Part shown: positions 40,796-46,992 of the stretch, piece by piece
Numbering within the stretch: the stretch's first letter is position 1
Layout of the letters: each line of letters begins with the position of its first letter
Source of the DNA: Desulfomicrobium sp. ZS1
GTDB lineage: Bacteria > Desulfobacterota > Desulfovibrionia > Desulfovibrionales > Desulfomicrobiaceae
Direction: 5' to 3'
DNA length: 64,000 nt
NCBI RefSeq assembly: GCF_024204645.1
Contig: NZ_CP100351.1
Coordinates: 3,498,001 to 3,562,000 of the forward strand
Translations under genes and position numbers: made by a program
The notes under the pieces: generated by a model
The model's input: the letters and a program-made list of their open reading frames with translations, nothing else
Databases searched by the model: none
What the model was told of the DNA's origin: nothing

Positions 40796-41332
40796 GTAGC
40801 GCGGCAAGTGTGCGGCGGGATGTTCGTATGCGCCCGGAAGCTGGAAACGCACATCCAGGAACATGCCGGATCATTTGAAAACAGGTTTTGAACACGTTAG
40901 GAACACGATTGGCACCAGGGCTTGGTTGAAAAATATGAGTTTGTATATTTGTAGATAAAAGCGATAATATACTGAAATAAAATATTTAGTTAGGAATGTT
41001 GCCTTGGGTTTTTTGCTCCGAAGCGGATGAGCATGTTCAAATATAGACGCAAAAAGCAGAGCATTCGCGCGCCGTAGCGTTTTGAACACGAAACGAACAG
41101 TTTCGGGGCTTTTGGATGCCTGCGACGCTGACCGTGATTTGTAGAGTGTTCGCAATGTTGCTAAATCGGATAACTATCTGAAATAGAAGTATTTGATATC
41201 GACATGTCGGGTCTGCAGGTGCAGGGAGGCCAGGGCGGATTGAATACGGAGCTACCGCGCGTCAAAGCGTGTCTGTTTGTGCGTAACTTTTTTTATGCTC
41301 TGAAATAATTCTTTATTTTTTGAACAACGGCG
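40796..41332. other. AT-rich non-coding stretch with paired GAACAC boxes
   Basis: About 540 bp without a convincing gene. It holds two GAACAC boxes 11 bp apart at 40890-40906 (GTTTTGAACACGTTAG then GAACACG) and a second such pair, GAACAC and GAACAG, at 41084-41100. CTGAAATA elements recur downstream of each and again near 41300. The two halves look like diverged copies about 194 bp apart. The 11-bp spacing (one helical turn) suggests a protein-binding array. A 94-codon minus-strand frame (41155-40871) is low-complexity and not credible. Confidence 0.4.
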
Positions 41333-41791
41333 TCATTCGCGCCACGCGAATGTGAAGTGGCAACACGGATGGCCTTGCATGATGGTTTGAGAGCGCTGCA
41401 TGGACAGGCAGGGGCTGTAGCCGTTGGCGAACGGTTCATCGCGGGCGCAGGAGAGGATGGCGCCAAGCTCGGGGCTCAGGCCCATGCCGGCATAGGCGCC
41501 TGCGTAGGCGCAGTCCGTGACTGTGAAGGTGAGAGTGGAACCGGTCAGGCGGATGTCTCTTATGGTCAGGGCGTCATCTTCCTGCCAGCGTTCAAGGATC
41601 GTTGCGAAATGTTCCAGGGTCGGCCCATGCGGAGCTTGGCTGGCAAATGTCTGGCCCGCGGCCATGGCGTCGGCCTGGATGGCTACGGTGAGAATTATTG
41701 TGGCCGACTCCGGGCTCATGTTTTCCAGCAGGGAATTCCAAATTCGGGCGACAAGTCCGGCCTGGGCCGTGCGCGCGGCGATCATGCTCAT
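41333..41791 (-). CDS. L-2-amino-thiazoline-4-carboxylate (ATC) hydrolase-like protein
   Basis: A 152-residue protein. Near its C-terminus, LGAILSCARDEPFANGYSP, LSMQRSQTIMQGHPCCHFTF and a central VTDCAYAGAY fit the small family named after ATC hydrolase, with its conserved cysteine, arginine-aspartate and GxPCC elements. The named activity opens a thiazoline ring to give a cysteine precursor. Most members are uncharacterised, and their fold suggests broad substrate use. It is divergently arranged with the CULT-domain gene, 44 bp between starts. Function here is uncertain. Confidence 0.65.
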   Translation of the reverse strand: MSMIAARTAQAGLVARIWNSLLENMSPESATIILTVAIQADAMAAGQTFASQAPHGPTLEHFATILERWQEDDALTIRDIRLTGSTLTFTVTDCAYAGAYAGMGLSPELGAILSCARDEPFANGYSPCLSMQRSQTIMQGHPCCHFTFAWRE

Positions 41792-41835
41792 GGGGCCTCT
41801 TTGCTTTCGGTGGATACTGGGATACTGGGCGGATA

Positions 41836-42249
41836 ATGTTCACAATGGATGTTTCCGCATGTTTTCGGGAAAGTGATTTCCCCGCGCAAGGCCCGGTTTT
41901 GGAGGACATGGACAGCTCCGAACTGGACGAATCCGGCCGCAGCGCCCTGCTTTGCCGGACCTGCGGCCAACCCGTGACCCGTCTCCGGGACCGGATCGCA
42001 GTGGGCGGAAAGCATGTGCATGCCCTGTTCAACCCCTCGGGCATCCTTTTCGAGGTCGGCTGCTTTGGTCAGGCCCCGGGATGCCGTTTCGAGGGGGAAT
42101 TCACCCATGCCTTCACCTGGTTCGCGGGTTACGCGTGGCGTTTTGCCATGTGCCGCCGCTGCGCCGCCCATCTCGGATGGGAATACCGCGGCGCGGACGG
42201 CGGCTTTGCGGGGTTGATCATGGCCGAACTGCGGGAAGCGCAGTCATGA
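41836..42249 (+). CDS. CULT-domain (cereblon-like) protein
   Basis: A 137-residue single-domain protein. Two CxxC zinc knuckles (LLCRTCGQPV and MCRRCAAHLGW) frame the pattern HALFNPSGILFEVGCF, then FTWFAGYAWRFA, which is the tryptophan-cage fold of the CULT domain, the ligand-binding domain of cereblon that binds thalidomide. Bacterial members such as the Magnetospirillum protein MsCI4 bind glutarimide-like or cyclic-imide ligands with the three tryptophans. No Lon-like partner domain is present. Start ATG at 41836; ATG at 41845 and 41911 are alternatives. Ligand and role are unknown. Confidence 0.75.
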   Translation: MFTMDVSACFRESDFPAQGPVLEDMDSSELDESGRSALLCRTCGQPVTRLRDRIAVGGKHVHALFNPSGILFEVGCFGQAPGCRFEGEFTHAFTWFAGYAWRFAMCRRCAAHLGWEYRGADGGFAGLIMAELREAQS

Positions 42250-42297
42250 CTTGTCTTTATCTTTGGGCTGCAGACCGCAGCTCTTCGATGCCGGGCC

Positions 42298-42387
42298 TCA
42301 GCCCTGAATGCCGATTTTCGGAAACACGACCTTGACCAGCACCACCCAGATGCCGACCAGAAGCAATATGTATAACAAGCTTTCCAT
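42298..42387 (-). CDS. 29-residue single-span membrane protein
   Basis: A very short gene: ATG at 42387, stop at 42298. The product MESLLYILLLVGIWVVLVKV and nine more residues is one hydrophobic helix with a basic C-terminal end (FPKIGIQG). AGGGAGG lies 6 bases before the ATG, a strong ribosome site for such a short frame and the main reason to call it. It might modulate a larger membrane complex. No family is recognised. Confidence 0.5.
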   Translation of the reverse strand: MESLLYILLLVGIWVVLVKVVFPKIGIQG

Positions 42388-42423
42388 TCCAACCTCCCTG
42401 AAGTTGTGTCCTGACTTCTTTTC

Positions 42424-43299
42424 ATGCGCACGCCGGGGGGCGGAGTCAACATGCAGGGGCAAAATCCGGGTATGAGCGTGACGGATTCCATGCCCGCGTC
42501 CGGGTTGCCTGACCTCGTGGACGCCCATTGCCACCTGCAGGACGGCTTTTTGCGTCACGCCCTGGAGCCGGCCTTGCTTCGGGCCCGCGCCGCCGGGGTG
42601 CGCATGATGTGCTGCAACGGCACCCACGAAGGAGATTGGCGGTATGTGCTGGGGCTTGGACGCAGCCACGCCGACATCTGCGTGTCCCTGGGCCTGCACC
42701 CCTGGTATGTGGGAGAGCGAGGAGGCGATTGGCTGGCGCGACTTGAGGAGCTGGTGGCGGACAATCCCGTCGGGATAGGCGAGATCGGTTTGGATAACGC
42801 TTTGGAATCGCGCAACGACGTTGAGCAGGAAGAGGTTTTTCTCGCCCAGATGGAGTTGGCCGTGAAATATGAGCGGCCAGTGACGGTCCATTGCCGCAAG
42901 GCCTTCGGCCGTTTGGCGGAACTGGTAGGGGCCATGCGGGATCGGCCGCCGTATATGATGCTGCATGCCTATGCCGGGTCCCATGAGATGGTCCCGGTTT
43001 TCGAGAAGCTGGGCTTTTACATTTCCATTTGCGCCTCCATTACCAGGACCGCGAATCGCAAGGTGCGTACGGCCTGCGTCCGGGTTTCGCCCGGCAGGCT
43101 GCTGGTGGAGACCGACAGCCCGGCCATCGCGCCCGTGGGCGTGGATTTCGAGCGCAACGAGCCGGCCTATCTGCCCATGGTGGTGGAGGTGCTGGCGGAG
43201 CTGCGCGGGGAAAGGCCGGAGGAGGTGGCGGCGCGGACGGCAGCCAATGCGCGGCTGTTTTTCCGGTGTTGCGAGGGCGTGGGTACGGCAACGGAATGA
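42424..43299 (+). CDS. TatD-family metal-dependent hydrolase
   Basis: A TIM-barrel hydrolase of up to 291 residues. DAHCHL near residue 33 carries the HxH metal motif, VGIGEIGLD holds the bridging glutamate, PVTVHCRKA and LLVETDSP supply the remaining ligands. TatD proteins act as 3'-5' DNases or D-aminoacyl hydrolases. Possible ATG starts at 42424, 42451 and 42472 give slightly different N-termini; the first 25 residues are not conserved. A 280-bp gap with a GC-rich tandem repeat follows before tcdA. Confidence 0.9.
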   Translation: MRTPGGGVNMQGQNPGMSVTDSMPASGLPDLVDAHCHLQDGFLRHALEPALLRARAAGVRMMCCNGTHEGDWRYVLGLGRSHADICVSLGLHPWYVGERGGDWLARLEELVADNPVGIGEIGLDNALESRNDVEQEEVFLAQMELAVKYERPVTVHCRKAFGRLAELVGAMRDRPPYMMLHAYAGSHEMVPVFEKLGFYISICASITRTANRKVRTACVRVSPGRLLVETDSPAIAPVGVDFERNEPAYLPMVVEVLAELRGERPEEVAARTAANARLFFRCCEGVGTATE

Positions 43300-43582: not shown

Positions 43583-44356
43583 ATGATGCGTTTTGCCCGG
43601 ACCATGCAGCTTATAGGCGAGGAAGGATTTGAGAGGTTGCAGGGTGCCACGGTGGCCGTGTTCGGTCTGGGGGCCGTGGGTTCCTATGTGGTCGAGGCCT
43701 TGGCCCGGGCCGGAGTGGGGAGCCTCGTGCTTTTCGATCACGATGTCGTGAGCCTGTCCAACATCAACCGCCAGCTTTTCGCCCTGCACTCGACCGTGGG
43801 CAGGCCAAAGGCCGAAGTGGCGCGGGAGCGGGTGCTGGACATCAACCCGGACTGCGCCGTGGAGGCGCGGATTCAGTTCGTGGACGGCGAGAATGTGGCC
43901 GGGCTGCTGGAGCCGCGTTTCGACATGGTCGTGGACGCCATCGACGGGGTCAACTCCAAGGTCAACCTTATTGTGGCGGCCCGCGAGAAGGGGCTGGAGG
44001 TGGTGGCGAGCATGGGCGCGGCGGCCAAGCTCGATCCGTCCAAGATTAAGGCCGCGGACATCTCCAAGTCTTTCATGTGCCCCCTGGCCCAGATCATCCG
44101 CAAGCGGCTGCGCCGCCGGGGCGTGACATCGGGCGTGCGCTGCGTCTTTTCCACCGAGGCGGCGCTGAACAAGAACGAGCCCGTCATTGAGGAAGCGCCG
44201 GAACAGGGCGTCAGCGGACGTCCGCGTGTGCCCATCGGCTCCATCTCCTACCTGACGGGCATGTTCGGGCTGTATGTGGCCAGCGAGGTTGTGCGTGAGG
44301 TGCTCGGCGGGTTCGAGTCCGTCAACTGCGGTAAAGACTCCAAGGGGGAAGAATGA
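43583..44356 (+). CDS. tcdA: tRNA threonylcarbamoyladenosine dehydratase (TcdA/CsdL)
   Basis: A 257-residue E1-like (ThiF) enzyme that cyclises t6A37 in tRNA to ct6A. The nucleotide-binding motif VFGLGAVGSYVVEALARAG is near residue 28, DHDVVSLSNINRQL near 50, and VDAIDGVNSKVNL near 112. SKSFMCPLAQIIRKRLR follows. Length and motifs match TcdA rather than ThiF or MoeB. The ATG at 43583 follows GGAGAG. Its stop overlaps the DUF3750 gene start (ATGA). Confidence 0.93.
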   Translation: MMRFARTMQLIGEEGFERLQGATVAVFGLGAVGSYVVEALARAGVGSLVLFDHDVVSLSNINRQLFALHSTVGRPKAEVARERVLDINPDCAVEARIQFVDGENVAGLLEPRFDMVVDAIDGVNSKVNLIVAAREKGLEVVASMGAAAKLDPSKIKAADISKSFMCPLAQIIRKRLRRRGVTSGVRCVFSTEAALNKNEPVIEEAPEQGVSGRPRVPIGSISYLTGMFGLYVASEVVREVLGGFESVNCGKDSKGEE

Positions 44357-45838: not shown

Positions 45839-46912
45839 TCAGACTTCGGCCAGCGTGCGCTCCCAAATTTTTTGCTGCGTCCTGGTCTGGGGCCAGGTCA
45901 GATTATCCTCGAAACCGTGGGCCATGTCGGGGCGGACTGAAATGATGCGTTCCACGCCGTGCCGCTCAATGGATACGTCCACCAAATCCCCGTGTTTTCT
46001 GGCCTTGGGGGAAAAGGATGCCAGGCAGGCCGCCGCCTCGGCCAGGATCTCCTCCGTCCAGTCCTGTCCGGGGATCGGGACGCCGACAGCATTGGGGCCG
46101 GGGAAGTTTTTGAGCACAAAGACGTACTGCTCGGCGCTGACCAGCTTCAAGAGTTTTTGGTTGTCCTTGTGATCCCGGCCCATGACCATCCAGTGGTCGG
46201 TGACCGCGTCCGCCTCCCTGCGCCAAAGCTGGCGGCCGACGTTGGCCAGATCGAAATATGGGCTGAGCGGCTTCGGAAAGGCCCGCAATATGGGCCAGTA
46301 GCGCCGGGCGGATTCCCGTTCTCCCAGGCGACACCCGCCGGCCTGAGTGGGGATTTTGGTGACGCCCAGTTCCTTGGCCAGGGCGTATTGCCCTTTGCGT
46401 CCGCGTCCGACCAGGGACCGCAGTTTGGCGCGATCGACCAGGCCGGATTCCTCCATGGGCGTGATGGGGAGCAGTCCCGCGCTTAATGGGCGCAGCAGCA
46501 GGTCGCGTACATCGGCGTCGTTGCGGATGATGTTCAGGGTGTCGGCGCGCTGGGACATGGGGCGCTGTCCGAGGACCTCGCCGGAGATGAGATACGAGGC
46601 GCTGTAGACCGGCAGAAGTTCCTTGGCCCGACGCAGCATGAGGATCTTGCAGTCGACACAGGGGTTCAGGACCTTGCCGAAGCCATGGGGCGGAAATGCG
46701 GCCATGAGGTCCACGAACTCCTGACCGACGTCGATGATGGTAATGGGAATACCGTATTCCCGTTCCCATTCGGGCACCTGGTCCGGCTTGCCGAAAAAGG
46801 GGCTGACAAAATGCAGCCCGAGAACCTTGTGTCCGAGGCTTTGCATCAGCTTGCTGGACAGGATGCTGTCCAGCCCGCCGGAAAAAAGTGAGAGCGCGTC
46901 AAAAGTGTTCAT
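45839..46912 (-). CDS. PP-loop ATPase, MnmA/ThiI-like
   Basis: A 357-residue N-type ATP pyrophosphatase. The PP-loop is ALSLFSGGLDSILSSKLM at the N-terminus. NPCVDCKILMLRRAKEL near residue 75 has the paired cysteines, and GEVLGQRPMSQR follows. This arrangement resembles tRNA thiouridylases (MnmA, ThiI), which adenylate a uridine before sulfur transfer. The C-terminal third is family-specific and has a QAGGCRLGE element. A distinct branch of these proteins is annotated as thiouridylase in sulfate reducers; the substrate is not known. The start at 46912 is chosen because the frame further upstream (to 47107) has no conserved-looking residues. Confidence 0.8.
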   Translation of the reverse strand: MNTFDALSLFSGGLDSILSSKLMQSLGHKVLGLHFVSPFFGKPDQVPEWEREYGIPITIIDVGQEFVDLMAAFPPHGFGKVLNPCVDCKILMLRRAKELLPVYSASYLISGEVLGQRPMSQRADTLNIIRNDADVRDLLLRPLSAGLLPITPMEESGLVDRAKLRSLVGRGRKGQYALAKELGVTKIPTQAGGCRLGERESARRYWPILRAFPKPLSPYFDLANVGRQLWRREADAVTDHWMVMGRDHKDNQKLLKLVSAEQYVFVLKNFPGPNAVGVPIPGQDWTEEILAEAAACLASFSPKARKHGDLVDVSIERHGVERIISVRPDMAHGFEDNLTWPQTRTQQKIWERTLAEV

Positions 46913-46992
46913 GACCCGTGCTGCTAGCCAAAGCCCGAGGGCTGCGCAAGGATGAAAAATACATACAAGTTCCCCATTTTCACGCACTGCGC

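Follow-up and report, generated by a model that had tools for sequence, protein, structure and literature searches.

What does the ligand-binding domain of cereblon do in a bacterium? Cereblon is a main handle for targeted protein degradation, yet bacteria, some of which carry its ligand-binding domain, have no ubiquitin ligase of that kind. CULT domains bind imide-containing rings. We examined a gene for such a domain in Desulfomicrobium sp. ZS1, within a stretch of 64,000 nucleotides (contig NZ_CP100351.1, positions 3,498,001 to 3,562,000; hereafter the window), and found that it adds a sound member to the CULT family. The role we propose for it, at a little under even confidence and by analogy with its characterised relatives, is that of a canonical bacterial CULT protein: a stand-alone, zinc-stabilised reader of C-terminal cyclic-imide groups.

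41836–42249, plus strand: single-domain protein of 137 residues with a CULT (cereblon-type thalidomide-binding) domain, identified by phmmer, alignment, AlphaFold2 and Foldseek

The open reading frame (ORF) runs, in the frame initially annotated, from an ATG at 41836 to a stop codon at 42247–42249, and all 10 aligned rows, of which one is that of the window, conserve its start codon. A phmmer search against solved structures placed entries for MsCI4 (MGR_0879), the CULT protein of Magnetospirillum gryphiswaldense, closest (best E-value 9.4e-26), followed by chains named Protein cereblon (best E-value 2.6e-10). Over the aligned domain, 44% of residues are identical to MsCI4. Judged from these sequence comparisons, the resemblance to MsCI4 and cereblon is far above chance. 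The protein scores below the cut-off of every Pfam and NCBIfam model, the best Pfam match being Yippee-Mis18 (PF03226; 20.3 bits versus 26.6), a group that Lupas 2015 (PMC4287342) describes as the nearest relatives of CULT; hence, automatic annotation may well label the protein hypothetical. The host genome (3.87 Mb) holds a single CULT match.

The AlphaFold2 model, built from 40 sequences of the window and related loci, has a mean predicted local distance difference test score (pLDDT) of 84.0, with blocks over residues 41–130 at 95–99. Since residues 1–30 have block means of only 47–48, no second fold is predicted, and the protein consists of the CULT domain alone, as in the bacterial CULT group of Lupas 2015. 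The top Foldseek match is MsCI4 (5amh), with a root-mean-square deviation (rmsd) of 1.0 Å over 104 columns at 42% identity. MsCI4 is likewise a stand-alone domain, its solved chains reaching up to 125 residues. Cereblon domains come next (CRBN domain 9odr, template modelling score 0.86 on the target), and all 50 of the matches listed are cereblon or MsCI4 structures, in contrast to the sub-threshold sequence match to Yippee/Mis18. Unlike CRBN, the 137-residue protein has neither a LON domain nor a DDB1-binding part. The predicted beta-tent fold agrees with the solved CULT structures, and a fold without the three-tryptophan pocket was not seen, as judged by fold and residues rather than by measured cage geometry. 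In summary, identity and fold both support the initial annotation of a stand-alone bacterial CULT protein.

The residues expected of a CULT pocket lie in five segments:

41953–41964, plus strand: first CxxC pair (C40, C43), presumed zinc ligands, present in 102 of 104 aligned rows, the remaining 2 being gaps
42031–42042, plus strand: NPSG (residues 66–69), the NPxG motif, assigned by alignment
42112–42138, plus strand: FTWFAGYAW (residues 93–101), with cage residues F93, W95 and W101 (MsCI4 Phe77, Trp79 and Trp85), assigned by alignment
42151–42162, plus strand: second CxxC pair (C106, C109), present in 104 of 104 rows
42169–42186, plus strand: HLGWEY, with W115 and Y117 (MsCI4 Trp99 and Tyr101), assigned by alignment; HLGW is residues 112–115

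The two CxxC pairs and the FTWFAGYAW and HLGW motifs on which the initial annotation had relied are thus all present. The glutarimide contacts described for MsCI4 (Phe77, Trp79, Trp85, Trp99 and Tyr101; PMC8900816) map by alignment onto F93, W95, W101, W115 and Y117, and the NPxG region is reported to hold the first tryptophan in position (PMC4449219). The protein therefore shares with MsCI4 the cage phenylalanine, three tryptophans and tyrosine, as well as both CxxC pairs and NPxG, and differs in having CFGQAPGCRFEG where MsCI4 has CFSLAQGLRLIG. Tyr117 is found here as in MsCI4, whereas human CRBN has no hydroxyl at this place and lacks the Tyr101 bond (PMC8900816). A single zinc would be bound through the four conserved cysteines.

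Conservation was assessed in 104 CULT-matching ORFs from 94 fetched stretches, which comprise 90 canonical copies (47 genera), 12 divergent paralogs from one genus (g54) and 2 fragments. The canonical set was defined by N66 and W95, which drops the 14 paralog and fragment rows; throughout it, N66, P67, G69, W95, F96, W101 and W115 are invariant (90/90). Position 117 is Y in 51 copies, F in 38 and W in 1, and position 112 is H in 79, Q in 10 and L in 1. Among further, mostly weak matches from other families, 8 of 11 alignments were checked (L186, L188 and L189 left out), and the three tryptophans were found in 8/8 and the NP pair in 7/8, L181 being the one without it. We also considered fusion proteins as an explanation for the longer CULT ORFs and rejected it: a comparison of 11 of their N-terminal parts with the full ORF set gave, for most, either no match or matches to ORFs that lack CULT, so that these extensions look mostly like in-frame run-on. 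In L163 and L096 (genus g6), the roughly 60 residues just ahead of the domain can be aligned in frame with each other, indicating a longer N-terminus in both.

The gene is under purifying selection, with ratios of nonsynonymous to synonymous divergence (pN/pS) of 0.18–0.46 between the window copy and 8 relatives in the genus, some synonymous distances being near saturation; G002 (nearly identical), G005, G009, G014 and G018 were left out of this set. The G005 copy (loci L014/L029; L029:7363-8307) matches from the middle onward only and is probably frameshifted, decayed or misread.

Bacterial CULT proteins, mainly delta-proteobacterial, have been reported as single-domain proteins (Lupas 2015, PMC4287342), and since the family as described there already covers this type, the Desulfomicrobium protein is a further ordinary member; among the papers searched, none joined cereblon with Desulfomicrobium. 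With a single-protein query, 14 of the 22 genomes of its bacterial family (f1) gave a CULT match. Profile searches found it in 130/348 genomes of the order and in 39/395 of a phylum sample, counts that may be low because only some first-look candidates were scored. A scan of genome contigs with the single CULT protein gave 2 loci only, and an alignment query would reach further. Nothing pointed to a mobile origin: no CULT match at an E-value of 1e-5 was found among 72,556 plasmid and 50,697 phage records, a collection that may exclude near-relatives of the window genome. Two absences within the genus may reflect contig ends only: the G007 contig stops at the ATC-hydrolase-like gene described below, and in G008 the match to the TatD-type gene reaches the contig end.

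We then looked for genes that accompany CULT, an analysis that the initial annotation had suggested. The ORFs of the 94 stretches (47 genera), mostly 6 kb on each side of CULT and shorter at contig ends, were called crudely as longest ORFs and clustered by blastp at 1e-8, a threshold that misses distant relatives. Clusters 0–2 are CULT and its antisense shadows; among the 527 others, 22 span at least 3 genera. Histidine-kinase-type proteins form the widest (13 genera), followed by an ABC ATPase (9 genera); both lie at scattered distances from CULT, and the kinase cluster comes within 600 bp of it in 3 genera of 2 families. No widespread partner emerged, the broadest recurrence of any gene within 600 bp being 3 of the 47 genera; hence, genome context gives no good hint of the ligand, and the survey suggests that context will not reveal it. 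In three loci of family f40 (L110, L114 and L120, three genera), an alpha/beta-hydrolase-type gene immediately precedes CULT in the same orientation, at a distance of 3–20 bp, and is a possible operon partner, in f40 only.

How might such a protein act? In the role we favour, a zinc-stabilised beta-tent domain would present a three-tryptophan cage, which would grip cyclic imides by hydrogen-bonding to their ring NH and one carbonyl, as shown for MsCI4. The protein most likely acts alone, as it lacks any further domain and no gene accompanies it widely, and is presumably cytosolic. Its ligand would probably be C-terminal cyclic Asn or Gln arising from protein damage, because MsCI4 was crystallised with the QcQ peptide, which ends in cyclic glutamine (PDB 8BC7; PMC10641816); in the phmmer search, the 8bc6 and 8bc7 chains carry the MsCI4 sequence. 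The initial annotation's remark that the natural ligand is unknown is, to judge from that crystal, partly out of date. C-terminal cyclic imides from Asn and Gln are described as degrons read by cereblon, formed non-enzymatically in a manner analogous to deamidation, and where they arise in mammalian cells is reported to be still under investigation (PMC12117711); bacteria should form them too. The isoaspartate-repair family PF01135 (PCMT) was matched in 343 of 348 genomes of the order, and its co-occurrence with CULT is therefore uninformative. In genus g47 (G236–G254), the PCMT match is weak in most genomes (E-value about 1e-6 to 1e-8; strong in G236, G238 and G243), so many of them may lack a true isoaspartate methyltransferase.

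Several observations weigh against this role. To our knowledge, bacteria have no ubiquitin ligase of the kind through which cereblon acts, and the blastp neighbour clusters linked neither a protease nor another effector to CULT across genera. The patchy spread of the gene (130/348 in the order) is odd for a reader of universal damage. Residue 92 (42109–42111) is Ala, at a position beside the pocket that is acidic in MsCI4 (Glu76) and human cereblon (Glu377) and is E or D in 80 of the 90 canonical copies and Ala in 7; Glu76 of MsCI4 is reported to contact the protruding part of avadomide (PMC8900816). Finally, MsCI4 also binds uridine at low micromolar affinity (PMC4449219), and thus the pocket is not selective for cyclic imides. 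The main rival of a cyclic-imide reader is a protein that senses or carries not protein ends but free small molecules whose ring is a cyclic imide or ureide (uridine, dihydrouracil or hydantoin), which we consider rather unlikely but well within reason. It would fit the binding of deoxyuridine in the MsCI4 crystal and of uridine in solution, but not of thymidine or cytidine (PMC4449219), the presence of PDB 4v31 among the top fold matches and the lack of a conserved protein partner in the neighbour clusters. As only 8 representatives of these clusters were annotated, a scattered link to nucleoside genes could be missed. However, a low-micromolar affinity for an abundant nucleoside would presumably saturate the pocket or make it unspecific. 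That the gene is instead a decaying relic with no function, as its patchy distribution and the broken or misread G005 copy might suggest, is very improbable given the pN/pS values in all 8 comparisons and the conservation of the cage residues across 47 genera.

Two other explanations start from the neighbours of the CULT gene in the window:

41333–41791, minus strand: ATC-hydrolase-like protein (PF14196; Pfam 86.1 bits versus a cut-off of 28.1), divergent neighbour whose linkage is limited to the genus
41792–41835, no strand assigned: 44-bp gap between the divergent start codons, holding the 12-mer CTCTTTGCTTTC, invariant in 10/10 rows
42424–43299, plus strand: TatD-type metal-dependent hydrolase (Pfam/NCBIfam, blastp), downstream, lineage-local
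43583–44356, plus strand: ThiF/TcdA-like protein, lineage-local; best NCBIfam match TcdA, 166.7 bits versus a cut-off of 304

The name of the first is that of its Pfam family, and hydrolysis of 2-amino-thiazoline-4-carboxylate is a putative rather than a demonstrated function. Read on the minus strand, the 12-mer is likely the ribosome-binding site of this gene; a scan of 41200–42700 for sigma-70-type promoters gave no match. The initial annotation took the association with the ATC-hydrolase-like enzyme as a hint of a cyclic-imide or thiazoline ligand, and it could be extended to a two-gene Desulfomicrobium module, in which one protein would bind a heterocycle that the other opens. The divergent pair is real, with starts 44 bp apart and the genes adjoining at 10 of the 14 CULT loci of family f1, and PF14196 is present in 11 of the 22 f1 genomes, next to CULT in 10 of them and at the end of a contig in G007. 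Outside f1, however, blastp and a profile of the ten proteins found it in 0 of 80 stretches, and within it G005, G009, G014 and G018 have CULT without a PF14196 match. PF14196 occurs in 120/348 genomes of the order; outside f1, 49 genomes have both genes, 67 CULT only, 60 PF14196 only and 150 neither, a weak co-occurrence (odds ratio 1.8, p 0.014, kinship ignored). In the 49 genomes with both, coordinates read by eye place the genes on one contig in 20 (the nearest pair about 62 kb apart, in G089) and on different contigs in 28, the place of the ATC gene in G174 not being listed. The module is hence improbable, and we reject the link as a ligand clue beyond one genus: the neighbour looks like a one-genus quirk. 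Cyclic t6A (ct6A) is a hydantoin. A reader of this ring in tRNA, made by the TcdA-like protein encoded two genes downstream, could be envisaged as 12 of the 14 f1 loci have a homologue close to CULT, but it is the most far-fetched of the explanations considered, since the TcdA curated cut-off is missed and no blastp match to the TcdA-like protein was found in the 80 stretches outside f1. The TatD-type gene likewise has blastp matches near CULT in f1 only.

A divergent form of the domain was found in genus g54, where 14 genomes have CULT matches (G317–G330), often in tandem. Most carry one canonical copy and 1–2 paralogs; in G317 and G320 a paralog is found alone, and G318 has two paralogs plus a fragmentary canonical copy. 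Sampling 8 of the 14 genomes (L127–L134) gave 12 paralogs (for example, L130:4777-6586 and L132:5413-5976), with a paralog only in L132 and L133 and two paralogs plus a canonical-copy fragment in L134. The paralogs have lost W95 and N66 in 12/12 and P67 in 10/12, and keep the four cysteines, W101, W115 and H112. In a tree built from 95 rows over 119 columns (a short search without bootstrap, 42 of 91 inner branches being weakly supported), all 12 lie on one side of a branch with a Shimodaira–Hasegawa-like approximate likelihood ratio test (SH-aLRT) support of 100, and the 5 canonical copies of g54 are separate (95). The model of one paralog (mean pLDDT 81.6) again matches MsCI4 best, at an rmsd of 2.9 Å. 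Tandem copies lacking both the first cage tryptophan and the NPxG asparagine may be a newer observation. One could speculate that the CULT proteins of bacteria act as free-standing readers of protein damage in the form of C-terminal cyclic imides, a counterpart of the cereblon degron pathway without the ubiquitin ligase, and that the g54 duplicate has changed its ligand, a combination that we regard as doubtful. Such natural variants, the alanine at the Glu76 position in the window protein and the g54 paralogs without the first tryptophan, are ready-made probes of what the pocket requires.

Elsewhere in the window, an ORF at 45842–46942 (minus strand) combines a ThiI-like part (PF02568, above its cut-off) with a region that comes close to the NFACT-R families but stays under their cut-offs.
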